Shown one piece after another: positions 981 through 11,676 of a DNA stretch of 11,676 nt. The DNA is from Methanolinea sp. (lineage in GTDB: Archaea; Halobacteriota; Methanomicrobia; Methanomicrobiales; Methanospirillaceae): NCBI GenBank assembly GCA_013331225.1, contig DUGV01000085.1, positions 1 through 11,676 on the forward strand, in the 5' to 3' direction. The notes under the pieces are model-generated. The model was not told the DNA's origin. It searched no databases and saw nothing but the letters and a program-made list of their open reading frames with translations. A program made the position numbers and the translations under genes. Within the stretch, counting starts at the first letter, position 1. The number at the start of each line of letters is the position of its first letter.

Positions 981-1961
981 GTGAGACCTATGCATCTCAA
1001 TCAAAGGACAGCAGGTATTCTTATTTTACTCAGTGCCCTCATCATCAGCGGGGCATTCTTTGCAGGTTGCACTACGACCACCCCCTCTCAGACAACCCCG
1101 GTTCAGACCCAGCCGGCTGAAAGGACAAAAGTGCTGCTGGCCACCACCACCAGCCTCTATGACACCGGGCTTCTCGAATACTTAAAGCCCATGTTCGATG
1201 AGAAATACAATGTCGATCTTCTCATCACTTCGCAGGGGACGGGAAAAGCTATCGAGATCGCTACACGTGGTGACTGCGACATCCTGGCCGTGCATTCTCC
1301 GAGCCAGGAACAGATCTTCATGGACGGCGGACATGGGGTCAACCGTCGCTGCTTTGCGTATAATTACTTTATAATCGTGGGACCTGCAAGCGATCCAGCA
1401 GGCATCAAGGGTATGAAGCCCGAGGATGCGTTCAAGAAACTGATAGACCAGGGGAAGGCTGGGACTGCCGGTGTCTCGTTTGCCTCCCGCGGGGATAACT
1501 CCGGAACCCATTCCGCAGAGAAGAATATCTGGAAGGCCGCAGGGTATAATTACACCACTGACATCCAGAAGTCCGGGAACTGGTACATCGAGGCCGGGCG
1601 GGGCATGGGAGAGACGCTGCAGCTTGCATCAGAGAAGCAGGCCTACACCCTGACGGACGAGGGGACCTACCTTGCCTACAAGGGGAACCTTGGACTGGTC
1701 CCTGTCATCGAACAGGGAGATATCCTCCTGAACGTCTACAGTGTCATCACGGTGTATACACCTACCCAGCCATCTGAAAAGATTGCGATGGCCAACAACT
1801 TTGTGAATTTCCTCATCTCCCCTGAGATCCAGACAGCCATTGGCGAATTCGGGAAGGAAAAGTACGGCAAGAACCTCTTTACCCCGATGGCAGGGGGATG
1901 CAGCCAGTTCAAGTGCGACTGCACGAGCCCGGCAACTGCCACGAAGCCTGCGACTGCCTGA
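981..1961 (+). CDS. tupA: Tungstate-binding lipoprotein of an ABC importer (TupA family)
   Basis: Extracytoplasmic solute-binding protein that captures tungstate for a TupABC-type ABC importer. The N-terminus has a hydrophobic signal (11-27) ending in the lipobox FFAGC, so Cys30 should be lipidated and hold the protein on the outer face of the membrane. The mature domain opens with LLATTTSLYDTGLLEYL (52-68); the TTTS motif (55-58) is the oxyanion-binding signature of TupA. NRRCFAYNYFIIVGP (121-135) and SRGDNSGTH (169-177) are also typical. Length (326) fits the family. The track start is GTG981, behind AAGGA; ATG990 (MHLNQRTAG) is an equally good choice and leaves the signal peptide intact. 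No TupB permease or TupC ATPase gene follows in the window. The C-terminal tail is odd: GGCSQFKCDC (305-314) then a Pro/Ala/Thr-rich end, giving three clustered cysteines. Confidence 0.88.
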   Translation: MRPMHLNQRTAGILILLSALIISGAFFAGCTTTTPSQTTPVQTQPAERTKVLLATTTSLYDTGLLEYLKPMFDEKYNVDLLITSQGTGKAIEIATRGDCDILAVHSPSQEQIFMDGGHGVNRRCFAYNYFIIVGPASDPAGIKGMKPEDAFKKLIDQGKAGTAGVSFASRGDNSGTHSAEKNIWKAAGYNYTTDIQKSGNWYIEAGRGMGETLQLASEKQAYTLTDEGTYLAYKGNLGLVPVIEQGDILLNVYSVITVYTPTQPSEKIAMANNFVNFLISPEIQTAIGEFGKEKYGKNLFTPMAGGCSQFKCDCTSPATATKPATA

Positions 1962-1967
1962 CCATTC

Positions 1968-1978
1968 CTATTTTTTCC
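1968..1978 (+). terminator. T-tract terminator after tupA
   Basis: Seven bases past the tupA stop the sequence reads CTATTTTTTCC, with six consecutive T (1971-1976) and no stem before it. Archaeal RNA polymerase ends transcription at such T-runs, so this may separate tupA from the following operon, at least partly. Confidence 0.4.
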
Positions 1979-1984
1979 ATGACT

Positions 1985-1993
1985 GGATAAATA
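1985..1993 (+). promoter_or_regulatory. Putative TATA box for the 2105-5425 operon
   Basis: GATAAATAC is the only TATA-like element between tupA and the next gene. It would place the transcription start near 2015, at the foot of the hairpin described at 2005-2043. The purine-rich BRE expected upstream is not clear. Confidence 0.35.
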
Positions 1994-2004
1994 CAGGGAA
2001 AGGT

Positions 2005-2043
2005 GGGAGTAAAATCCCCGGTCGGCTACCGGGCAGAAGGCCG
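2005..2043 (+). other. Structured leader element with stable hairpin
   Basis: CCCGGT (2017-2022) and ACCGGG (2028-2033) form a perfect 6-bp GC-rich stem with the 5-base loop CGGCT. A second small stem, GGGA/TCCC (2005-2008/2015-2018), abuts and partly competes with it. CGGC of the loop can pair with GCCG at 2040-2043, so a pseudoknot is possible on paper, though almost no bases are left to bridge the helices. It lies in the 5' region of an operon that encodes a W/Mo-binding protein. I do not recognise a known riboswitch class, including the molybdenum-cofactor class. Confidence 0.35.
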
Positions 2044-2104
2044 TAACTTTTGAGATCAACTGGATTGTAAACACATGAAACCTAACCCGAATTGTGAGAG
2101 AAAA

Positions 2105-2947
2105 ATGAGAGAGAACATCATACCACCTGCAAGATTCATCATCTGCATCATCTGCATCCTTTCGTTCTCCCTTGGAGCCTGCGCCGCCACCACATCCCTG
2201 CACATCATCAAATATGGAAATGATGGGGTCACAGTTCTGAAAGAGACAACTGTCTCGTATGAGTGGATGGAAAAGAATCTCCCGGTGCAGGGCGATGGTG
2301 TCACCCACTACTACCACCAGGGCCCGGTCTTCCTTGACGACCCTAATCCAGAGGCCCAGGAAATGCTGCGATGGAACCCTCCCGAAGACAAAAACGTCCA
2401 GGAAAAGGACATGGGTGCGGTGAAGGGGACCAATCTCCGTGACCTCTGCGAACTGGTGGGAGGGATGTCCCCGGGAGACACAGTGAAGGTCAGGGCTGCA
2501 GACGGTTTCTCCAGGGAATTTGCATACCAGAACGTGTATTCCTTCCCTCCAAGACAGGGGCCACTTGTCGTGACCTGGTGGAAGGCTGATGCCGGATACG
2601 TTCCGGATTACCGGGAAGGGATGCGGCTCGTATTCTTTGCTGACACCAGCACGAATCCCTGGGGTATCCATGCCTTTGGAAACTGGGACTGGCACGAGTC
2701 GGCTGATGAAGAGCACTGGTATTATTACCGCCAAGGGGACCAGAAATACCCGACCACGACAGGCCTCTCGGTCCAGTATATTTCAGACATTTTGATCTAT
2801 CCCGGCAGCTCTGCACAGGCAGAACCTCGTCGCATGGCAACACCTAACGCACCGGAGGCTCCGACACAGGCAGGATTCTCACTCCATGTGATCATGGGTG
2901 CTCTCACAGCCGGCGTTCTCCTTGTATACGCCACTAAAAAGAGGTAA
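2105..2947 (+). CDS. Secreted, C-terminally anchored HQGPVF-family protein (sulfite-oxidase-like fold inferred)
   Basis: Function unknown. I chose ATG2105 because GTGAGAG lies just upstream and the resulting signal peptide is compact (MRENIIPPAR, then a hydrophobic run, cleavage after GACA at 24-27). ATG2075 in the same frame adds ten residues and has no ribosome binding site. The domain (about 28-233) holds the motifs shared by all four paralogs in this window: SYEWMEKNL (51-59), GDGVTHYYHQGPVF (63-76), RWNPPEDKNVQEKDMGAVKG (89-108), LRDLCELVGGM (111-121), DGFSREFAYQNVY (133-145), GMRLVFFAD (172-180), NPWGIHAFGNWDWHES (184-199) and YPTTTGLS (215-222). Layout resembles the molybdopterin-binding fold of the lipoprotein at 3852-4433. 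After a Pro/Ala-rich linker, AGFSLHVIMGALTAG plus VLLVYATKKR (256-280) forms a C-terminal membrane helix with a basic end, somewhat like archaeal PGF-CTERM anchors. It is the first gene of a four-gene coupled block. Confidence 0.85.
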   Translation: MRENIIPPARFIICIICILSFSLGACAATTSLHIIKYGNDGVTVLKETTVSYEWMEKNLPVQGDGVTHYYHQGPVFLDDPNPEAQEMLRWNPPEDKNVQEKDMGAVKGTNLRDLCELVGGMSPGDTVKVRAADGFSREFAYQNVYSFPPRQGPLVVTWWKADAGYVPDYREGMRLVFFADTSTNPWGIHAFGNWDWHESADEEHWYYYRQGDQKYPTTTGLSVQYISDILIYPGSSAQAEPRRMATPNAPEAPTQAGFSLHVIMGALTAGVLLVYATKKR

Positions 2948-2952
2948 AAGCG

Positions 2953-3855
2953 ATGGATTTAAGTTCTTTTTCCCTTCGTATTTTTGACACACAACGAAAT
3001 CACAGGATCGGATTGTTCCCGTGCATCATCGCCGCGATCCTGCTCTTCGGGCTGATACACGTCACGTGCGCAGCTCCCACTACAGAAGTGCGTGCCGCGA
3101 AATATGCCGCAGACGGCACTACGGTTCTGAACGAGACGAAGGTGTCGTACCAGTGGATGGAAGCAAATCTCCAGGTATATGGTGACGGCCTGACGCACTA
3201 CTTCCACCAGGGTCCGGTCTTTGTGAGCGACAAGGAAGGGCAGTGGGACGTGAACGAGACTACGAATTTCAAGGACATGGGGGCCGTCAGAGGCACTTCG
3301 GTAAGAGACCTCTGCGACCTCGTGGGGGGAATGAATCCAGGCGACGAAGTGATGGTGAAAGCTTCCGATGGCTATCACGTGGAGTTCCCTTACGAAAACA
3401 TCTACCACCCACTTCCCCGCCAGGGGTCAGTCGTTGTCTGCTGGTTCAACGGTGAGGAGACCGCGGTGGGTGAGCGCCAGGGGACGGGATACCCGCCTTC
3501 CTACCATGTCGGTATGCGGCTGGTTTTCTTTGCTGACAACTCGACAAATCATGAGGGGAAGAATGTCTTTGGGAACACGGACATGAGGGAAACGATGCCT
3601 CCAGATTCGGTCCATCTCTTTGACAATCTCTATCCGTCGACAAGCGGCTATACCGTCAAGTGGGTTGACGAGGTGCGGATTTATAGTGGAGGATATCACG
3701 GGTCCTCCGAATTACTCCCGAAATCCTACGAGTCGAAGATGGATGAGACATACCCTCCTCCACCCACCAGGAGCCCGTTGCTCTTGGGTATTCCCCTCGT
3801 GGTATGTCTTGCTTGTGCACTCATGCTTGTGAAAAGAAAGGATCGTGAATCATGA
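2953..3855 (+). CDS. Secreted, C-terminally anchored HQGPVF-family protein, divergent copy
   Basis: Function unknown; paralog of the preceding gene, separated by five bases. Its ribosome binding site GAGGT (2941-2945) overlaps the previous stop codon, so translation is probably coupled. The signal peptide is long (hydrophobic 19-38, cleavage near VTCA at 37-40). Family motifs: SYQWMEANL (65-73), GDGLTHYFHQGPVF (77-90), KDMGAVRGTSVRDLCDLVGGM (107-127, split here by position only), DGYHVEFPYENIY (139-151) and GMRLVFFADNST (187-198). It is the most divergent copy. The RWNP segment before KDMGAV is gone, the second Tyr of HYYHQGP is Phe, and NPWGIHAFGNxDWHES has become NHEGKNVFGNTDMRET, losing the WH pair. 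YPTTTGLS has become YPSTSGYT. The C-terminus has a Pro-rich linker, a helix (275-293) and KRKDRES, a membrane anchor with a basic cytoplasmic tail. The divergence suggests a distinct ligand or a partner role beside the first copy. Confidence 0.85.
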   Translation: MDLSSFSLRIFDTQRNHRIGLFPCIIAAILLFGLIHVTCAAPTTEVRAAKYAADGTTVLNETKVSYQWMEANLQVYGDGLTHYFHQGPVFVSDKEGQWDVNETTNFKDMGAVRGTSVRDLCDLVGGMNPGDEVMVKASDGYHVEFPYENIYHPLPRQGSVVVCWFNGEETAVGERQGTGYPPSYHVGMRLVFFADNSTNHEGKNVFGNTDMRETMPPDSVHLFDNLYPSTSGYTVKWVDEVRIYSGGYHGSSELLPKSYESKMDETYPPPPTRSPLLLGIPLVVCLACALMLVKRKDRES

Positions 3856-4433
3856 AACTCACTATCCCAGTTCTCCTCATCTCATTTCTCGCTGTCGGAT
3901 TCCTGATGGCTGCAGGATGTTCCGACACAAAGAGCCCGGTGGCCGAGGCCGCTCCTGACTATTCTGACTGGCGGCTCACCCTGAAAGGAGCCAGTGAGAT
4001 GGTTTTCACACTGGATGAATTACGTAATCTGCCTTCGGTGAACGGTCATGGATACTGCGTCTCGACTACGGGATTCAGGTTCGGACCCTACCGCTGCAAG
4101 GGGGTAGACCTTCGTGTCCTTGCATCCATGGCTGGGGGTATGGAACCTGGTGACACCATCTGGATATCAGCTCCGGACGGATATCTCTGGGTTTTTGACC
4201 TGGACCAGATGGAAGGCAGAGGCTTCGTCACCTTCAACGAGGGCCTTGCAGAAATCCCTTCGCCGCCTCTTCGCATCATCCTGATGTATGAACAGGATGG
4301 AAAGCCACTCTCCTACAATGACGGCGGTCCCGCACGCATTGCCATCATCTCCGAAGAACCGGGAGTAATCACTGAAGGAAGCGCGTGGGTGAAATGGGTA
4401 GACCGGATCGAGATTAAGGAGAAGACGGCATGA
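3852..4433 (+). CDS. Lipoprotein with minimal sulfite-oxidase-type molybdopterin-binding fold
   Basis: Small (193 aa) lipoprotein; hydrophobic signal ending in the lipobox MAAGC (Cys23). From residue 40 it follows the oxidoreductase molybdopterin-binding domain (sulfite oxidase/YedY superfamily, Pfam PF00174) nearly end to end. WRLTLKG (40-46) matches the entry strand, FTLDELRNLP (52-61) the 'L-eL' helix, and GYCVSTTGF (67-75) the segment holding the molybdenum-ligand Cys, so C69 is the candidate ligand. KGVDLRVLASMAGG (83-96) matches 'GvpLrdLL'; APDGYLWVFDL (107-117) matches the DGY strand; MYEQDGKPL (145-153), GGPARI (158-163) and KWVDRIEI (181-188) match the closing segments. These matches are from memory of the family. 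The N-terminal and dimerisation domains of full enzymes are absent. The signal is Sec-lipoprotein type with no twin arginine, so export with a preloaded cofactor is unlikely. It overlaps the previous gene by ATGA (3852-3855), with AAGGA upstream. Confidence 0.85.
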   Translation: MKLTIPVLLISFLAVGFLMAAGCSDTKSPVAEAAPDYSDWRLTLKGASEMVFTLDELRNLPSVNGHGYCVSTTGFRFGPYRCKGVDLRVLASMAGGMEPGDTIWISAPDGYLWVFDLDQMEGRGFVTFNEGLAEIPSPPLRIILMYEQDGKPLSYNDGGPARIAIISEEPGVITEGSAWVKWVDRIEIKEKTA

Positions 4434-5425
4434 ACAGGGCGATCGTTCCGGTGATTCTCATGCTCATTTTCTGTACCCTCTACTCCGGGTGCAGTACGCA
4501 CCCGAACACCGGAAAGATCCCCCTCAAGGTTGTTGCTGCGGGAAGTCTCCTCGTTCCTTTCTCGGAATTGGAATCCCAATACGAGGCACTGAACCCGGAC
4601 ATTGACGTCCAGGTTGAAGGTCACGGAAGCATACAGGCAATTCGCCAGGTCACGGACCTCTACCGGAAATTCGACGTGGTCGCAGTTGCAGATGAATCAC
4701 TCATTCCTGATTTGATGTATCGCCCTTCCCGGGAGACCGGGAAGAACTTTACCGACTGGTATGTCCCTTTCGCCCGGAACGAGATGGTGATCGCGTATAC
4801 CGAAAAAAGCCTGTATCATACAGAGATAAATGAGACAAACTGGCCGGAAATCCTTGCAAAGCCGGACGTCAGGGTTGGTTTCTCAAATCCCATGCTCGAT
4901 GCTGCCGGATACCGGGCCCTCATGGTCACCATGCTCGCGGGAGACTATTACGGTGACCAGACAATATTCCCGAGGGTGATCGGGAATCATTTTGACCCAC
5001 CCCTTGTAATGGAAAATTCAGCGCAAGGTTACACGGTCCGTCTCCCGGAGGTCCCCCATCCATCAGACCAGCACATCGTCATCCGTGACGGGAGCATCTT
5101 TCTCCTGTCTCTCCTTGCCGCCGGAGGAATTGACTATGCATTCGAATACAGGAGTGTCGCAGAAGCCCAGAACTTATCGTATGTCAACCTTCCGCCAGAG
5201 ATCAACCTTGCCTCCACTGATTACGAAGACTGGTACGCAAAATCCCATGTGATACTTGGCTTTCCCCGCTTCTCCTCAATCGGCCAGGAACGGGGCGGAA
5301 GACCGATTGTCTATGCCATGACAGTTCCATCAGACGCAACACACCCGGATGAAGGACAGAAATTCCTGCAATTTGTACTGGGTCATGAAAAGATAGGAGA
5401 GAGAGGCTGGCCGGCCTCTCTCTAG
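4430..5425 (+). CDS. wtpA: Tungstate/molybdate-binding lipoprotein (WtpA family)
   Basis: Extracellular binding protein for tungstate and molybdate, normally feeding the WtpB/WtpC ABC importer. The lipobox LYSGC places the lipidated Cys at 21. The mature protein is a close match to archaeal WtpA: LKVVAAGSL (32-40), VEGHGSIQAIRQVTDLYRKF (62-81), DVVAVADESLIPDLMY (82-97), FSNPMLDAAGYRALM (151-165), DYAFEYRSVAEAQNLSY (235-251) and LPPEINL (254-260). In characterised archaeal WtpA/ModA proteins an Asp and a Glu complete an unusual octahedral oxyanion site; here D157 and E239 stand at those places, together with S39 of AGSL. It overlaps the preceding gene by ATGA (4430-4433), with AAGGAG (4416-4421) at ideal spacing. 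Neither wtpB nor wtpC follows, so transport must rely on components elsewhere, or the protein serves the surface proteins encoded with it. Length (331) is usual. Confidence 0.93.
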   Translation: MNRAIVPVILMLIFCTLYSGCSTHPNTGKIPLKVVAAGSLLVPFSELESQYEALNPDIDVQVEGHGSIQAIRQVTDLYRKFDVVAVADESLIPDLMYRPSRETGKNFTDWYVPFARNEMVIAYTEKSLYHTEINETNWPEILAKPDVRVGFSNPMLDAAGYRALMVTMLAGDYYGDQTIFPRVIGNHFDPPLVMENSAQGYTVRLPEVPHPSDQHIVIRDGSIFLLSLLAAGGIDYAFEYRSVAEAQNLSYVNLPPEINLASTDYEDWYAKSHVILGFPRFSSIGQERGGRPIVYAMTVPSDATHPDEGQKFLQFVLGHEKIGERGWPASL

Positions 5426-5530
5426 GCAATTGTCTCCATAATACCTATGCAAGAAATAACCGGAAATTTTCTGATGCAAGGCAGAAAAGGAGAGGAAATC
5501 TCAACCCGCATGCCGGGATATGAGGGATCA

Positions 5531-5641
5531 ATGGGGACCCCAGCTGCGGCGCATGTTACAGGGAGATCTCTCGCGGCAGCAGTTTTTTTCCTGTTTTTAT
5601 CTCAAGGGCCTCTGCCCTTCCCTAGAGAGGAGTGTGGATGA
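5531..5641 (+). CDS. Doubtful small ORF with one hydrophobic segment
   Basis: A 36-residue frame, extendable upstream to ATG5447 for 64 residues. The ATG at 5531 has GAGGG four bases upstream; the longer versions have no ribosome binding site. It contains a hydrophobic stretch SLAAAVFFLFLSQGPL and ends in TGA overlapping the next start as ATGA (5638-5641), the same coupling seen at other junctions here. Against it: the hydrophobic part is encoded by the T-runs that look like a terminator, and I recognise no family. Otherwise 5426-5637 holds only the T-tracts and the next gene's ribosome binding site. Confidence 0.2.
   Translation: MGTPAAAHVTGRSLAAAVFFLFLSQGPLPFPREECG
5583..5598 (+). terminator. 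Double T-tract, possible terminator of the wtpA operon
   Basis: TTTTTTT (5583-5589) and TTTTT (5594-5598) lie in tandem about 160 bases past the wtpA stop and 40 bases before the phosphoesterase start. This matches the stem-less T-run termination of archaea. The TTTTTATC end could instead act as a weak TATA element for the next gene. Confidence 0.35.
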
Positions 5642-7113
5642 TTCTACCCACAGGAAAAGGTCGCATTACTCCAGGGAGACGACAAATTGAGCGGATCTCC
5701 CGTATTTCGAGAATCATTTTTGCTGTATTCCTGTTATCGGCTCTTGCATGGACTTCTGGTGCCATTCCTGAAGATTTTGGCCATAATAACGCTTTCCCGG
5801 TCAATAATCACACCATGCAGGACGTAATACGATGGGGACCCTATATCACTGGTACAACATCCAATCACACGAATATTCATCTCTGGACCTCTGACCCTGT
5901 CCTTCCGACCATTCAATACGCAAATGATAGTTTCAGGAGCGATTTGTTGCAGCCTCATCGCACAGCGTTTTTTACCGATGGCTATATCCACCACACATTC
6001 CTTCTGGAGAATCTCGCTGATGCAACACGCTATGAGTACCGCATCTGGAGCGGAGAGACCGAGTACGGTATTTATCACTTTCTCACCTATCCGTGTTCGG
6101 GACCGGTCACGTTCGTGGTCTATGGGGACACGAGGGACGAGCTTCCCCGCATCTCACAGGAGGAACGGCACCGTCCGGTTGCGGATGTTATTGCCGCGGA
6201 ACCCGGCGTTTCACTGGTCGTGCATACAGGCGACCTTGTGAACAATGGAGAAAATATGTCGGACTGGGACCGGTTCTTTGCCACCGGTGCGGTGATGTTT
6301 GCGAATGTCACCCTTGTCCCGGTGATGGGGAACCATGAGAGGAACAGCGATCTGTATTTTGAAATATTCCGGACTTCCCCGAATTACACCGTTGAGGCCG
6401 GCAATATCCTGATCGTGGTCCTCGATTCCAACGACTGGGCATGGAATGACCTGCCTGCACAGTCTGCATGGATGAATGAATCATTCTCGCGGGATGTCCC
6501 CTGGAAATTCGTCGTCCTTCACCATCCAATCTATAGTTCTGAAGAGAAACACCCGGGGGGCTTTCAGAACCTCCGGAGAGAATGGGAACCGGTCTTTCGG
6601 GCGTGTGGGGTTATTGCCGTCTTCCAGAGCCATGTTCACGTCTACGAAAGGGACGTTGCACATGGAATCACGTATATTACCGAAGCAAGAGGAGGAGCTC
6701 CATTTTACACACTTGCCGAACAGAAGATACCCGAATACCGGGTGAGCTCGGAGAATACTCTCGGATACACTGTCGTGCGGACAGAAAACAATTCGGATTT
6801 CGTGCACATGAGGGTAATGGCCGTCTCCCCTGCAGGAGGGAAGGGAGAATCCAGGGCCAGTATCATTGAAGAGATCACTCTTCCTGAACCGGTGGAATGG
6901 GCGGATGATGACAGCGTTGACAAAAACCAGCGTTCACTGTTCCCTGCCAGGCTGCAGACCCTGCAGACCTGCAGGGATGCCCTCTTCGCAGGGTCGGGAG
7001 AGGCATGTTCAGGGGCAGAGGAGTGCAGGAATCTCATATCTTCCCTCTTCAACCCCGAAGAAGAGGATGGCCACCTGTTGCAGACCCGGGATATACCCGA
7101 GAGGAAACTATGA
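5638..7113 (+). CDS. Secreted metallophosphoesterase, purple-acid-phosphatase-like
   Basis: Extracytoplasmic calcineurin-superfamily phosphoesterase with an N-terminal fibronectin-III-like domain, as in purple acid phosphatases. I chose ATG5638, with GGAG at 5629-5632 in front; GTG5632 overlaps that site. Residues 25-42 form the signal or anchor helix after a basic stretch. Domain 60-150 (VIRWGPYITGTT through RYEYRIWSG) is the beta-sandwich. The catalytic domain shows all metal motifs in order: YGDTRDE (162-168, D164), HTGDLVNNG (196-204, D199), GNHE (231-234), VVLHHPIY (292-299) and SHVHVYERD (331-339). The substrate cannot be read from sequence; phosphomonoesters or diesters are likely. The C-terminal 75 residues are acidic and carry three cysteines (445, 457, 463) of unknown role. 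The last codon overlaps the next start as ATGA, so it is co-translated with the PEGA protein that follows. Phosphate scavenging or trimming of surface polymers are both possible. Confidence 0.88.
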   Translation: MILPTGKGRITPGRRQIERISRISRIIFAVFLLSALAWTSGAIPEDFGHNNAFPVNNHTMQDVIRWGPYITGTTSNHTNIHLWTSDPVLPTIQYANDSFRSDLLQPHRTAFFTDGYIHHTFLLENLADATRYEYRIWSGETEYGIYHFLTYPCSGPVTFVVYGDTRDELPRISQEERHRPVADVIAAEPGVSLVVHTGDLVNNGENMSDWDRFFATGAVMFANVTLVPVMGNHERNSDLYFEIFRTSPNYTVEAGNILIVVLDSNDWAWNDLPAQSAWMNESFSRDVPWKFVVLHHPIYSSEEKHPGGFQNLRREWEPVFRACGVIAVFQSHVHVYERDVAHGITYITEARGGAPFYTLAEQKIPEYRVSSENTLGYTVVRTENNSDFVHMRVMAVSPAGGKGESRASIIEEITLPEPVEWADDDSVDKNQRSLFPARLQTLQTCRDALFAGSGEACSGAEECRNLISSLFNPEEEDGHLLQTRDIPERKL

Positions 7114-10100
7114 CGAGAAATTCTCTCATTACATTCCATGCGAATCTCCATCCGCTCCTGCTCTTACTTATGATCTCATGCGTGCTGGTAGGTGCATCCG
7201 GAGTTACATCTGCTGCGACAACCGAGATTCGTGTAGTAAAATATGCAGCCGACGAGTTCACCATACTTGCCGAAAAGACCGTTGACTATCGATGGATGGA
7301 GAAAAACCTCCGTGTATACGGAGATGGATTCACCCATTACTACCACCAGGGACCAGTCTTTGTGGACGATCCGGACCCTGTGAAGGAAGAGGAACTGAGA
7401 TGGAACCCGGATGAAGATACCAATGTCCAGGAGAAGGACATGGGTGCCGTCAAAGGAACGAGTGTAAAAGACCTCTGTGACCTGGTAGGGGGGATGGGGT
7501 CTGAAGACAGGGTAAAAATACGTTCCGCTGACGGCTGGTCCATGCTCTTTGCGTATAAAAACGTTTACGAATATTCCAGTCGCGAAGGCCCCATCGTGAT
7601 CTGTTGGTCTAAGAATGGGATGTTTCCCGATACAGGATACTCGGATGGTATGCGGATGGTGTGGTTTGCCGACACCTCGACTAATCCCTGGGGGATCCAT
7701 GCCTTTGGGAATTACGATTGGCACGAAGCGGCTGATTCGGAATACTGGTATTTTTACCATTCGGGAGACGAGAGATATCCCACCACCACTGGCTTATCAG
7801 GGCAGATCGTCTCTGAAATCCTGATATACAGCCAGGAAGAGCCCGCTGGCAGCATCGAAGTCACATCAACCCCTGCGGGTGCCGAGATAGTGCTCGACGG
7901 AGAAGAGACCGGAGAGATCACTCCTTTCACTCTTGTCGACATTCCTGCCGGCAGTCACACTGTGAGTGTCCAAAAGGATGGTTATCTCGATCCCATTGAA
8001 GAGTGGGTCGATGTATCTCACGGGGTTGTCGTTCCGGTCCATTTCAACCTGGAACGGGAATATTCCGTCACATCGTCATCCGGGGATCTGGCATCCACCC
8101 AGGACGGCGGGTATGTATCCGAACAGATCTCATTCGGCTTGGTCGCAACTGCGATAACCGGCAATATATCCCTCCATGTTGCACCTGGAGAGCGCCAGAT
8201 CTGCAGGAGCGGACAGTCGATTACGTACCGCATTCCACCAGATTCTTTGCCGCCGAGTTCTTTCGCATGGGCCAGGCTCTATCTGTTCTCTGATGCGGGG
8301 TATACCCACGAACAGAGGATTGAGGTCGGAATCAACGGGATGAGCCCCGGCACTCCGGAGCGTTCCACATTTCGCCTCCCTGACGGCAAAGTCACTGAAA
8401 CGCTGGCCTTTAATGTTACACGCATGCTGAGGACCGATGCCCCGATGGAGATATCTGCCAGGAATCCCCCCGGCGGGAATGAATGGACTCTCTATCCTCC
8501 CCTTCTTCTTGTTGTGGCCGGAGACGATGGTGACGTCCATCGCGAGAACTGGATTTCGGAAGGAGCGGGCCTTGTCCACGCCATGAAGGAGTATTCCTAT
8601 CAGGACCTCCCGAACCTCACTGTTTCAGATTTCCCGGATATCCGGACAGGTCTTTCCGGAGCAGAACTCCAGGCAGTCAGTACGATCCCGGACGATGGTG
8701 GGGCATCCTCTCCCATGGCATTCCAGAACTCGGTTGTCATACCGGGTGAATACGCGCACAACCATGCTGGAATATGGGTCTCACGTTACAATGTCACCGG
8801 AACTGTCTCGGAGTATACACATAATGAATTGTTCTGGAAAACAACACCGGGAAGAGATCCGGCTGTAATCGGGCCAAGGATAGTCATCCTTACCGTTTCG
8901 TATCCACCGGGACTTTCAACAACTGATTATACGTCAAAGAATCGTTCGGCAATCGGACCTATCGATACTCCTCCCCCTGTCTCTGAAAGCCCCCCGCCAT
9001 CTCCGTCCACCTCTGCTGTCACGACCATTACTCCCGATTTAATCGGGAATGGACGTGAAGGAACAATAAGGGACGACTCCTTCTTCTCCCGCATATGGGA
9101 GGTGCTGTTCTGGATACTCGGGATTCCGATACCCGGACACGGGGACCAGGGCCAGGTGCCCGTCACCGGCGACAACCCATATGAGTACTTGCCAAATGAT
9201 GAATCTCCCCGCAATGCCCCGGATTCTTCTTCCGGTTACCCTCTCCAAGTCAGCACGACCCCCCCGGGAGCCCTCGTCTCGATTCATGGAGGATCAGATG
9301 TGCAAAGTTCGCCTGCCACCTTTGTACTGCCAGGGGGCGAATACCGCCTCGCGGCCGAGATGGACGGCTATCTCTCCTGCCAGACAGTGGTCCGTCTCGC
9401 CGGTCCACAGGAGATAACCCTTGTCCTGACCCCGGAAGGAGGAACAGATGAAAGCCTACCCGGAGAGGCACCGGAAAGGTCCCGCCATGGCGGCCTCCTG
9501 ATCGTCACCTACCCGGGGGATCTGGAATTATCGGTGGATAATCAACAAATGGAGAGAAAAAGTCCCCTTGTGCTCTATGGACTGAAAGAGGGATACCATA
9601 CCGTGAAGGCAACCCGGCCGAGTGCGTCGGCCGGCAAGGGCGAGACGCTCATTACAAGGGCTTGGGTATATCACGATGCACTAGCCATCTGTGAACTGGA
9701 TTTCGTTGTTGCCAGACTGGATCGGAGGATACGGATCACGGACCCTTCAGGAAATTCCACTGCATTCACGCTCAACGGGATATATCCACTGCTGCGGACT
9801 CCGGTTACCCTTGAAGTCCCGGGAACCGGGTCATATATCACCCTCATCGGCGAATCCACCTACACGAACATCCCTATCCAGGACGGCCTTGCAGACGGTA
9901 GCGAACTTCTCCTCCCCACATATAACGGAAATTATCATGCCATCTCAATTGAGTCCGCCCCTTCCGGTGCAGAGATTTTTATGGACGGGGCAAGGACCGG
10001 GAACACCACTCCTTCTCTCGTGAGGGGGTTATCTGAGGGGACACACCTCGTAATGGTATCATTGCCGGGTCACCTGCCGACGCACAGAGTGATCAGCATT

Positions 10101-10367
10101 CCCAGGACACAGGAGGAATATATCAAAGGGACTGTTTCATTTATCCTGGAAACATATCCATCCGGCCCTCTCCGGGTCGAGAGTGTCCCCGCTGGTGCTG
10201 CAATCTTCATCGACGGGATTGCAACAGGTGAGAAGACACCGTTCTCATTCACCGCGATTCCTATCGGGACCCACGACCTGACACTCCGCTCAGGAGATAC
10301 CACGCGGTCCCGGGATATCATCGTCCGTCCTGACAATCCGAACAGGTACATTGTCCATCTTCTTTAG
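7110..10367 (+). CDS. Large secreted HQGPVF - PEGA - DUF3344-like surface protein
   Basis: Multidomain surface protein of 1085 residues, function unknown. ATG7110 is chosen because GAGAGGA (7099-7105) precedes it, it overlaps the upstream stop as ATGA, and it opens directly into a signal peptide (hydrophobic 14-30, cleavage near VTSA at 32-35). An in-frame ATG7005 is inside the phosphoesterase gene. Order: HQGPVF domain (37-241, with GDGFTHYYHQGPVF 71-84, DLCDLVGGM 121-129, NPWGIHAFGNYDWHE 192-206, YPTTTGLS 223-230); PEGA 1 (248-314); DUF3344-like beta domain (about 317-600); Pro/Ser/Thr linker with short hydrophobic FFSRIWEVLFWILGIPIP (658-675); PEGA 2 (711-773); PEGA-like 3 (795-868); a beta-rich segment (869-943); PEGA 4 (944-1013); PEGA 5 (1019-1083). 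PEGA units show P-x-GA-x-I-x-x-DG ... TPF ... G-x-H. There is no C-terminal anchor; the 658-675 segment is too short and charged to be a sure membrane helix. PEGA repeats probably bind cell-envelope material, which would retain the protein at the surface. Confidence 0.88.
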   Translation: MTRNSLITFHANLHPLLLLLMISCVLVGASGVTSAATTEIRVVKYAADEFTILAEKTVDYRWMEKNLRVYGDGFTHYYHQGPVFVDDPDPVKEEELRWNPDEDTNVQEKDMGAVKGTSVKDLCDLVGGMGSEDRVKIRSADGWSMLFAYKNVYEYSSREGPIVICWSKNGMFPDTGYSDGMRMVWFADTSTNPWGIHAFGNYDWHEAADSEYWYFYHSGDERYPTTTGLSGQIVSEILIYSQEEPAGSIEVTSTPAGAEIVLDGEETGEITPFTLVDIPAGSHTVSVQKDGYLDPIEEWVDVSHGVVVPVHFNLEREYSVTSSSGDLASTQDGGYVSEQISFGLVATAITGNISLHVAPGERQICRSGQSITYRIPPDSLPPSSFAWARLYLFSDAGYTHEQRIEVGINGMSPGTPERSTFRLPDGKVTETLAFNVTRMLRTDAPMEISARNPPGGNEWTLYPPLLLVVAGDDGDVHRENWISEGAGLVHAMKEYSYQDLPNLTVSDFPDIRTGLSGAELQAVSTIPDDGGASSPMAFQNSVVIPGEYAHNHAGIWVSRYNVTGTVSEYTHNELFWKTTPGRDPAVIGPRIVILTVSYPPGLSTTDYTSKNRSAIGPIDTPPPVSESPPPSPSTSAVTTITPDLIGNGREGTIRDDSFFSRIWEVLFWILGIPIPGHGDQGQVPVTGDNPYEYLPNDESPRNAPDSSSGYPLQVSTTPPGALVSIHGGSDVQSSPATFVLPGGEYRLAAEMDGYLSCQTVVRLAGPQEITLVLTPEGGTDESLPGEAPERSRHGGLLIVTYPGDLELSVDNQQMERKSPLVLYGLKEGYHTVKATRPSASAGKGETLITRAWVYHDALAICELDFVVARLDRRIRITDPSGNSTAFTLNGIYPLLRTPVTLEVPGTGSYITLIGESTYTNIPIQDGLADGSELLLPTYNGNYHAISIESAPSGAEIFMDGARTGNTTPSLVRGLSEGTHLVMVSLPGHLPTHRVISIPRTQEEYIKGTVSFILETYPSGPLRVESVPAGAAIFIDGIATGEKTPFSFTAIPIGTHDLTLRSGDTTRSRDIIVRPDNPNRYIVHLL

Positions 10368-10375
10368 GGATCCCT
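10366..10375. repeat. Perfect 10-bp palindrome at the stop codon
   Basis: AGGGATCCCT overlaps the stop of the PEGA gene (TAG at 10365-10367). It has no T-run after it and is too short to be a convincing terminator, so the pair of genes upstream may read on into the following region. Confidence 0.3.
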
Positions 10376-10393
10376 CAGGTCCCTCTCATTTAA

Positions 10394-10430
10394 CAACAGG
10401 TATATCTGTTGGTATAACGTTTGATATCAA
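10394..10430. promoter_or_regulatory. Two palindromes upstream of the last promoter (candidate operators)
   Basis: CAACAGGTATATCTGTTG (10394-10411) is an 18-base dyad with 6-base arms and a TATA core, with one mismatched pair. TTGATATCAA (10421-10430) is a perfect 10-base palindrome. They lie about 20-60 bases upstream of the TATA box, where archaeal activators or dimeric repressors bind. TATAT (10401-10405) followed seven bases later by TATAACG (10413-10419) vaguely resembles the ModE molybdate-regulator half-sites, but the left arm is incomplete. Confidence 0.4.
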
Positions 10431-10448
10431 CAATTGCCTCAAGTTAAA

Positions 10449-10456
10449 TATATAAA
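10449..10456 (+). promoter_or_regulatory. TATA box for the last gene
   Basis: TATATAAA, within TTAAATATATAAAG and preceded by purines (AAG), is the best archaeal promoter element in the window. It predicts a start near 10477 and a leader of about 80 bases. Confidence 0.65.
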
Positions 10457-10477
10457 GATTTAGTTTTAAGATAACAT

Positions 10478-10559
10478 TGTTCCTGACCGGGTTATTCACC
10501 CGCTCGGGGAGTCGTGCGACTCGATAAAACTCCTGGTGAGGCAAGGTGGCGTGAATACT
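10478..10559 (+). other. Structured 5' leader of the last gene
   Basis: Two hairpins are visible: CGGGT/ACCCG (10488-10492/10498-10502, loop TATTC) and GAGTC/GACTC (10509-10513/10518-10522, loop GTGC). GGAGT (10508-10512) can instead pair with ACTCC (10529-10533), which excludes the second hairpin and brings the fold close to GGTGAGG (10535-10541). A second ribosome-binding stretch, GGTGGCGTGA (10545-10554), stands just before the ATG at 10560. The alternative pairing could control access to the ribosome binding site, but no known riboswitch is recognised. Confidence 0.3.
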
Positions 10560-11676
10560 ATGCGTTCCAAGTATGCACTTACTCTATGTTCCTTTCTTTT
10601 GATTGCCCTGGTCATTGTCCCGGCTTGCGCGGCGACGACCCAGCTGCATGTAATACGATATGCGAATGACAACACCACGGTTCTCAATGAGACCACCGTC
10701 ACGTACCAGTGGCTTGAAGAGACCCTCCCTGTCCTTGGTGATGGATCTACACATTATTACCACCAGGGGCCGGTCTTCATCGATGATCCAGACCCCGATA
10801 TTGAACAGCAGCTTCGGTGGAACCCGGCTGAAGACACCAATGAAAAGGATCAGGGTGCCGTCAAGGGGACCAATCTGAAGGACCTCTGCGATCTCGTCGG
10901 AGGAATGTCTCAGGGAGATACCGTCGAACTCGAGGCTTCTGACGGGTTTTCCAAGACATTTGCATATGAAAACGTCTACACCTATCCCGCGCGGCAGGGA
11001 CCGATGGTCATCACCTGGTACCAGGATGGTAACTATCCCGATACCGGCTATTCCGACGGTATGAAACTCGTATTCTTCGCCGATGACTCTGTCAACCCGT
11101 GGGGATACCACATGATGGGGAATTATGACTGGCATGAGTCGGCAGCACCCGAATACTGGTACTATTACACAAGTGGATCGGAACAATACCCCACGACAAC
11201 AGGTTTATCGGTAAAATACATTTCTGACATCAAGATATACAGCCAGGAAGCGCCTCCTGTCCCTGTCGATACCCTCTTTGATGGCACCGTTACTCTCATT
11301 GAGGGTGAGACCTTCACCGTCACCGCCTACAACAATGCCAGCGGGAACTACACGGTGGACTATACCACGCCACTCGGTGCCCTCGAGACCGCATCCAAGG
11401 CCGGATCAGGGTTCACCTACGACATAACCGACAAGAACTACGCCTCATCAGGAGCACTGCTCCTGGATAATATTGGCTCGTATATTTACCAGAAGACGCC
11501 CAGGAAAGCCTGGTATGCCTATGTCAATGATGTATACAAAGATGGATACAATAACCCGGCCGGTGCCCTGAACCTGATAGCGCTGAATGATGGCGACACA
11601 GTCGAGTTCTACTTCGTTGACGGCACCGTGGCCGATCCGACTGATTATGCCGCAGTGACCGCAGCAGCGACCGCTG
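10560..11676 (+). CDS. Secreted HQGPVF-family protein with DUF4430-like domain (3' end missing)
   Basis: Function unknown; 372 residues are visible and the frame is open at the window edge. The start ATG10560 follows GGTGGCGTGA; an in-frame GTG10551 sits on the ribosome binding site and is less likely. The signal peptide is short (MRSKYALTL, hydrophobic to 20, cleavage after PACA at 21-24). The HQGPVF domain (25-229) is complete: TYQWLEETL (48-56), GDGSTHYYHQGPVF (60-73), RWNPAEDTNEKDQGAVKG (86-103), DLCDLVGGM (108-116), DGFSKTFAYENVY (128-140), GMKLVFFADDS (167-177), NYDWHES (188-194) and YPTTTGLS (210-217). Residues 238-355 form a DUF4430/transcobalamin-like domain: PLGALETASKAG (271-282), YDITD (287-291), LLDNIGSY (301-308), WYAYVNDVYKDG (318-329) and LNDGDTVEFYF (342-352). 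An Ala/Thr-rich stretch begins at the edge, probably a linker to a further domain or anchor. It has its own promoter and leader, unlike the other copies. Confidence 0.9.
   Translation, partial: MRSKYALTLCSFLLIALVIVPACAATTQLHVIRYANDNTTVLNETTVTYQWLEETLPVLGDGSTHYYHQGPVFIDDPDPDIEQQLRWNPAEDTNEKDQGAVKGTNLKDLCDLVGGMSQGDTVELEASDGFSKTFAYENVYTYPARQGPMVITWYQDGNYPDTGYSDGMKLVFFADDSVNPWGYHMMGNYDWHESAAPEYWYYYTSGSEQYPTTTGLSVKYISDIKIYSQEAPPVPVDTLFDGTVTLIEGETFTVTAYNNASGNYTVDYTTPLGALETASKAGSGFTYDITDKNYASSGALLLDNIGSYIYQKTPRKAWYAYVNDVYKDGYNNPAGALNLIALNDGDTVEFYFVDGTVADPTDYAAVTAAATA

Follow-up and report, generated by a model that had tools for sequence, protein, structure and literature searches.

The window analyzed here is an 11,676-nucleotide stretch of Methanolinea sp. 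DNA (assembly GCA_013331225.1, contig DUGV01000085.1) and comprises one entire contig out of 304, the genome being 67.77% complete. It carries, in order, hisD, a gene for a TupA-like tungstate receptor, two genes for secreted proteins that share a domain (HQ-1 and HQ-2), a gene for a PF00174 lipoprotein of the sulfite-oxidase (SUOX) fold, wtpA, a metallophosphoesterase gene, and two further genes with the shared domain (HQ-3 and HQ-4). We call this domain HQGPVF, or HQ, after one of its motifs. Across the genomes searched, these genes belong to a conserved cluster—HQ domains, a same-fold lipoprotein, often a metallophosphoesterase, and a dedicated clade of the receptor WtpA—whose hosts are Methanomicrobiales methanogens, two further archaeal families, and some Firmicutes.

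All four HQ genes lie on the plus strand. HQ-1 (2075..2947) and HQ-2 (2953..3855) encode secreted proteins ending in a C-terminal hydrophobic stretch, each with one HQGPVF domain (residues 37–245 of HQ-1, window 2183–2809; window 3070–3693 for HQ-2). HQ-3 (7110..10367) is a large surface protein in which the domain (7212–7838) is followed by PEGA domains and DUF3344 (Pfam scan: PEGA E 5e-40 in four stretches; DUF3344 E 1e-7); its start was set at 7110 for the ATGA overlap, the open reading frame (ORF) listing giving 7005. HQ-4 (10536..11675), truncated by the contig end, carries the domain at 10629–11249, and its C-terminal part (11250–11675) gave a faint DUF4430 match (E 0.065) under the cut-off. 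Relative to HQ-1, the other three proteins are 45, 58, and 61% identical over their full length and 53, 66, and 68% identical over the domain. The four copies share 79 invariant columns, including GDGxTHYxHQGPVF, DLCxLVGGM, and GMxxVxFAD.

ORFs and alignments bear out the original prediction, made from this DNA alone, that four secreted proteins share one domain with these motifs; YPTTTGLS likewise occurs in three of the four, the fourth reading YPSTSGYT. The predicted close packing with TupA-like, WtpA, and PF00174 lipoproteins was recovered in Pfam and NCBIfam scans, and the junctions it described are present in the sequence: ATGA overlaps at 3852 (HQ-2/SUOX-fold gene), 4430 (SUOX-fold gene/wtpA), and 7110 (metallophosphoesterase/HQ-3), and a 5-base gap (2948–2952) separating HQ-1 from HQ-2. 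The genes thus coupled form an operon. The metallophosphoesterase gene (5632–7113), absent from the earlier gene list, lies inside the cluster.

The HQ domain is present in 93 of the 232 genomes of the window's class, so its sharing goes beyond chance; among 392 genomes drawn from the phylum it occurs in 47, ten of which belong to two families outside the order. Positive genomes carry 1 to 14 copies, with up to five in a single protein, and the accompanying domains (PEGA, PKD, DUF3344, beta-helix, and chitobiase-C) are typical of surface proteins. Within the window's own genus, seven genomes (G147, G149–G152, G154, and G155; five at least 94% complete) yielded no HQ domain, so the cluster is patchy even in close relatives. 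Copy number differs widely among relatives, and one genome holds a copy with an in-frame stop (G145:C22:122163-122741) beside five further copies. Four of the 120 homologues listed (P0004, P0021, P0093, and P0117) bear the public name "argininosuccinate synthase"; Pfam and NCBIfam scans of the window proteins gave no trace of that enzyme, and the name looks like a wrong annotation passed between records.

Direct searches gave the HQ domain no family. No Pfam family covered it in the four full-length proteins (limit E 10, with HMMER filters dropping most matches above 0.1); of two domains scanned in isolation, one produced a lone hit at E 0.34, which was attributed to chance. Searched against PDB sequences, the HQ profile retrieved nothing but antibody chains (E 0.18 and 1.5), again attributed to chance. 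A new fold was considered and rejected on a profile–profile match and on the resemblance of structure models to SUOX-fold and PruR structures: The SUOX-fold lipoprotein is homologous to the HQ domain (profile–profile E 9e-11), and an AlphaFold2 model of the HQ-1 domain (predicted local distance difference test score, pLDDT, 97.1) has PruR as its closest solved fold. On this modeled structure, HQ is a diverged member of the sulfite-oxidase fold that does not ligate molybdenum. The PF00174 lipoprotein, which the original prediction had placed beside the HQ proteins as a separate kind of partner, is instead their relative.

The lipoprotein itself (3852..4433, plus strand; 193 residues) matches PF00174 at E 1e-10 and belongs to the SUOX fold: Sulfite-oxidase and PruR chains rank top against its model (pLDDT 90.4). 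Its molybdenum-ligating cysteine, the ligand of the molybdenum cofactor (Moco), is not conserved; in the orthologue alignment the nearest position holds Cys in 11 of 34 sequences and otherwise Ala, Ser, Gly, or Phe. Among 100 HQ sequences no Cys is found in the invariant columns, and the DLC cysteine, kept in 87, aligns with a non-Cys place in the lipoprotein. An Arg near the C-terminal part is conserved in both (34/34 lipoproteins, 94/100 HQ domains). A simple pattern finds a lipobox-like N terminus in 43 of 57 SUOX lipoproteins, and a pattern search found a twin-arginine-like motif in none of 216 HQ N termini. Without a twin-arginine translocation (Tat) signal, a folded, cofactor-loaded protein is not expected to cross the membrane. 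Because the Moco cysteine is not conserved and no twin-arginine-like motif was found, the SUOX lipoprotein and the HQ proteins are probably not enzymes. The nine strongest PF00174 matches in the 27 archaeal genomes described below were taken for true enzymes, and eight of them lie away from HQ genes.

Other residues are kept. An Asp-Gly-Tyr and two C-terminal Trp are present in all 34 lipoproteins; of 100 HQ domains, 99 hold Asp at the first of the corresponding places, 83 an aromatic residue (F/Y/W) at the second, and 61 Tyr or Trp at the third. Judged from a short 7kom alignment and a review on PruR (PMC13259868), the lipoprotein Asp, Tyr, and one Trp would map to the pterin-site residues Asn/Asp102, Tyr104, and Trp160 of PruR (A. 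tumefaciens numbering). PruR lacks the molybdenum-ligating cysteine and binds reduced pterins in a truncated pocket, according to that review (PMC13259868); the pterin idea gains a specific basis, since both the HQ domain and the lipoprotein resemble PruR.

Linkage was counted in 27 of the 93 positive genomes, picked for completeness (16 genera, six families; two 13-copy genomes, G088 and G124, were left out) and searched for HQ, WtpA, TupA, PF00174, and WtpB; these genomes are related, so the counts are not independent trials. WtpA lay within 2.5 kb of an HQ domain for 27 of 44 genes, in 26 of the 27 genomes, where the fraction of the genome within that distance would predict 0.32. The same distance held for 50 of 59 PF00174 matches, many of them within large HQ proteins themselves, and for 9 of 61 WtpB-type permeases. 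All 44 listed WtpA matches exceed the family cut-off; no WtpB or TupA match does.

Gene order was read in the named loci, the window, and further stretches, with nine repeat loci left out, although species may still recur. Of these loci, 51 hold a SUOX-fold gene; all 51 have an HQ gene immediately before it and 49 have WtpA immediately after it, the exceptions being L006, where an extra HQ–SUOX gene intervenes, and L019. Of the 46 loci with sufficient sequence, 17 have a WtpB-type gene no more than 600 bp from that WtpA, and 16 of these 17 also have a WtpC-type gene. At the window locus, wtpB and wtpC are not beside wtpA, which is followed by the metallophosphoesterase gene; wtpBC was lost there or was never present, and the same genome encodes wtpABC on another contig. 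That genome also has modABC-like genes and two TrmO-like ORFs beside formate dehydrogenase genes (L073, G000:C278; names assigned by eye).

The metallophosphoesterase (5632..7113, plus strand) is a secreted, calcineurin-like protein with a purple-acid-phosphatase-like N domain (PF00149 E 1e-13; PF16656 E 7e-5, under the cut-off). Among the 19 SUOX loci with long flanks, 13 have a same-strand metallophosphoesterase gene within 8 kb; none of 17 regions around transporter-type WtpA has one, though these regions are shorter (mean 7.5 kb). HQ–metallophosphoesterase fusions were seen in seven ORFs, two of which are one gene in overlapping loci.

The window WtpA (4430..5425, plus strand) exceeds the curated TIGR03730 cut-off (328 versus 242.75 bits) and falls in the clade found downstream of SUOX-fold genes. 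Of 87 WtpA ORFs, 12 that were repeats or shorter than 300 residues were dropped; a tree of the other 75 places 50 in one clade with 100/100 support. "HQ" labels in this tree and a second one were set by distance and also by score, making them partly circular. Repeating the test on the 75-sequence tree with gene position as the sole criterion put all WtpAs that immediately follow a SUOX-fold gene (48 of 48) inside the clade. Its other two members, L031 and a Syntrophomonas sequence, are both near HQ genes. None of the 25 WtpAs outside the clade directly follows a SUOX gene; five of them have an HQ gene no further than 1 kb away (L066, L069, and L070, transporter-type; L012 and L022, TupA–WtpA fusions). 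The second tree (56 rows) took in additional Bacteria and archaeal families and recovers one clade of 31 (support 100/99). Bacteria take two places in it: G630 next to those added archaeal families (96/86), and G627, together with Syntrophomonas, next to the methanogens (96/78).

TupA-like/WtpA-like fusions, single ORFs of ~635–650 residues (L012:7836-9785, L022:1850-3799, L104, L105, L106, and L107), form one clade of the WtpA tree (100/99). The WtpA of L050, on a contig titled Clostridiaceae, falls inside the Methanoculleus group; that contig is therefore probably a misbinned Methanoculleus-like archaeal one, and it was kept in the gene-order counts.

In WtpA, octahedral tungstate has two carboxylate ligands, Asp153 and Glu218 (A. 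fulgidus numbering). The Asp153 equivalent is kept in all 75 sequences, and the Glu218 equivalent is Ser in 49 of 49 rows labeled HQ and 19 of 20 labeled transporter. A distinct oxyanion site in the SUOX-linked clade was sought and not found, since the Glu-to-Ser change is common to transporter-type WtpA and thus not special to the clade. With residues of the oxyanion site kept apart from the Glu218 equivalent, oxyanion binding by the clade's WtpA is plausible.

TupA behaves differently from WtpA. The window TupA-like lipoprotein (981..1961, plus strand) matches NF041772 at E 1e-53 and 182 bits, under the curated cut-off of 400, and its nearest PDB chains, 5my5 and 3lr1, are tungstate-binding proteins; no TupA in the 27 genomes reaches that cut-off either. 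Within 2.5 kb of HQ lie 3 of 35 TupA genes (3 of 27 genomes), and within 10 kb, 6 of 35 (6 of 27 genomes); at the 19 SUOX loci with long flanks, TupA is within 8 kb at three. On these counts, TupA was rejected as a core part; it is a neighbor in the window and a few relatives, not a conserved component. The neighborhood enrichment that the original prediction had offered as its check was strong for WtpA and PF00174 but failed for TupA. Of the remaining window features, hisD is partial and on the minus strand, and matches of window proteins to a GEGP dihaem model (E 0.06, 0.07, and 0.016) were set aside as too weak.

The linkage to tungsten and molybdenum (W/Mo) genes extends to a second domain of life. 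In the order of the bacterial genome G541, the HQ domain occurs in 23 of 113 genomes; four of these (G563, G626, G634, and G643) gave partial matches only and were left out. Of the 19 genomes with full-length HQ, 15 have at least one of modA/B, tupA/B, wtpA/B, moeA, mobB, AOR, fdhD, or fdhA nearby, and 11 of 15 do once the four seed-supplying genomes (G541, G542, G543, and G546) are removed; any such gene was found in 1 of 11 control stretches. HQ stretches ran up to 40 kb, with controls of 20 kb at least 24 kb away on the same contigs. The W/Mo count excludes energy-coupling factor (ECF) genes, DUF364, and phosphoesterases, and takes MobB and MoeA as cofactor genes.

Individual bacterial loci vary in the importer they place beside HQ. 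G627 and G630 show the HQ–SUOX–WtpA–WtpB order of methanogens. In one Firmicutes genome (L024 and L037), HQ genes stand back to back with TupA, TupB, an ABC ATPase, two MoeA, and AOR; ModA and its permease lie upstream of HQ at L055 and L058 (the latter also with TupA), and WtpA and WtpB at L043. Names of transporter and cofactor genes are those of the best family: WtpA of L043, ModA, ModB of L058, one MoeA, and MobB of L041 score over curated cut-offs, and WtpB, TupA, TupB, the AOR fragment, MobB of L032, one MoeA, and the ECF parts under them. ECF importer genes (ATPases and a CbiQ-type T component) adjoin HQ at L032:14597-17904, L041:17777-20643, and L055:5155-8588; at L032 and L041 these genes and mobB come after HQ, and the L055 set also has a PF09819 membrane protein. 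The substrate of this importer could be a pterin or pterin precursor. At L055, a TrmO_N–FmdE protein is encoded upstream of modA. The original prediction of a surface W/Mo or pterin-metal capture system of methanogens is partly supported, through its W/Mo linkage and the PruR-like fold, but its restriction to methanogens was too narrow: HQ also occurs in two archaeal families outside the order and in Firmicutes, and is linked in Bacteria to other W/Mo transport and cofactor genes.

On balance, we lean toward reading the cluster as a surface module for W/Mo acquisition, in which PruR-like domains would bind a pterin and WtpA would take the oxyanion. The pterin captured by surface HQ and SUOX-fold domains would most likely be Mo/W-pterin cofactor or products of its breakdown; the secreted metallophosphoesterase would trim phosphate from it; and WtpA would pick up the tungstate or molybdate set free, for import through WtpBC, which in the window's genome would be the WtpBC encoded elsewhere. 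We infer the pterin as ligand, the metal it carries, the phosphoesterase's role, and the hand-over from an orphan WtpA to a distant WtpBC. The step from pterin to metallopterin is the more inferential, because the PruR pocket is described as likely too small for Moco (PMC13259868). A more specific version is tentative, and we would not bet on it: Anaerobic archaea and Firmicutes in dense consortia would catch Mo/W-pterin cofactor or breakdown products from neighbors on apo SUOX-fold domains displayed at the surface, the phosphoesterase would strip the cofactor, and WtpBC, TupBC, ModBC, or an ECF importer with MobB would import the metal or the whole cofactor.

The domains might instead bind the metal directly, HQ and SUOX-fold proteins holding tungstate or molybdate at the surface, with no pterin involved, and supplying WtpA from this store. 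The close linkage to genes for WtpA, ModA, and TupA fits such a store, as do multi-copy, PEGA- or PKD-bearing HQ surface proteins; to our knowledge, however, the SUOX fold is known for pterins and pterin cofactors, not free oxyanions, and we consider direct capture unlikely. Free pterin could also act at the surface as a signal, the W/Mo link then reflecting regulation rather than uptake. PruR speaks for this: it is the nearest fold to HQ, binds tetrahydromonapterin and controls DcpA, and its pocket is given as likely too small for Moco (PMC13259868), yet a Pfam scan found no GGDEF/EAL protein among the window genes, a transporter receptor directly follows nearly every SUOX gene (49/51), and HQ domains occur in large surface proteins in up to five copies each. 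A sensing role is rather improbable.

There are two further readings. The surface domains that accompany HQ, together with a copy number of 1 to 14 per positive genome, would suit structural or adhesive proteins in a cluster that happens to adjoin wtpA; coincidence of this kind is quite improbable, since the linkage recurs in six families within a single order, in two archaeal families outside it, and in Bacteria, involves differing W/Mo importers, and comes with a WtpA clade of its own. An extracellular Mo/W oxidoreductase that loads its cofactor at the surface shares the sulfite-oxidase fold and would explain moeA, mobB, and AOR genes nearby in Bacteria; with the Moco cysteine unconserved in the lipoprotein (11/34), no invariant cysteine in HQ, and no twin-arginine-like signal in 216 N termini, we regard it as very improbable. 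Capture of a pterin, with WtpA taking the oxyanion, remains the reading we prefer.

Methanogens and syntrophs depend on W and Mo for their formate and CO2 chemistry, and the cluster bears on how these organisms collect the scarce metals and whether they do so in pterin-bound form. If the proposal is true, Archaea would use a SUOX-fold domain that lacks the metal ligand to receive pterins or metallopterins at the surface, and a testable role would fall to a large protein family with some members named "argininosuccinate synthase." The results suggest an undescribed way of collecting W/Mo at the cell surface; no description of the cluster appeared among the open PMC papers that our searches listed. 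The same module in methanogens and Firmicutes, some from syntrophy genera (Pelotomaculum and Syntrophomonas by record title), suggests gene exchange between these partners. In Syntrophomonas wolfei, a protein annotated for tungstate uptake is among the butyrate-induced membrane proteins (PMC3582634), a finding relevant to tungstate supply in syntrophy rather than to HQ. Uptake of the cofactor itself has parallels: C. elegans takes up protein-stabilized Moco from bacteria by means given as unknown (PMC9793310), and outer-membrane proteins are suggested for molybdopterin uptake in a bioinformatic paper (PMC12282271).

Among known systems, the closest is PruR, a periplasmic pterin-binding protein of Proteobacteria (PDB 7kos, 7kou, 7kom, 7kp2, and 7rkb). 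Like HQ and the lipoprotein, it is a secreted SUOX-fold protein without the Moco cysteine; of solved folds it is the closest to the HQ domain and one of the closest to the lipoprotein, in which an Asp-x-Tyr and a Trp that may correspond to PruR pterin-site residues are kept. The lipoprotein, at 193 residues, is like PruR a secreted single SUOX-fold domain, whereas HQ proteins are longer: The HQ-1 domain has 209 residues, carries THYYHQGP, and is 11–17% identical to PruR in structural alignment. PruR is described as a lone ~170-residue protein paired with dcpA (GGDEF–EAL) (PMC13259868); the HQ domain, by contrast, also occurs in large surface proteins, sometimes repeated, and is linked to WtpA and W/Mo genes. 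With no dcpA partner and WtpA following instead, we do not file the proteins as PruR. Sulfite oxidase and YedY, Moco enzymes of PF00174, share the fold, the lipoprotein's PF00174 match, and the conserved Arg, but HQ and the lipoprotein have no conserved Moco cysteine and HQ has no twin-arginine-like N termini. The WtpABC importer is matched by a window WtpA over the family cut-off, by kept oxyanion-site residues (the Asp153 equivalent among them), and by WtpB/C-type genes that follow in some loci; unlike in ordinary WtpABC, the SUOX-following WtpA forms a separate clade and is coupled to a lipoprotein gene, often without WtpB/C.

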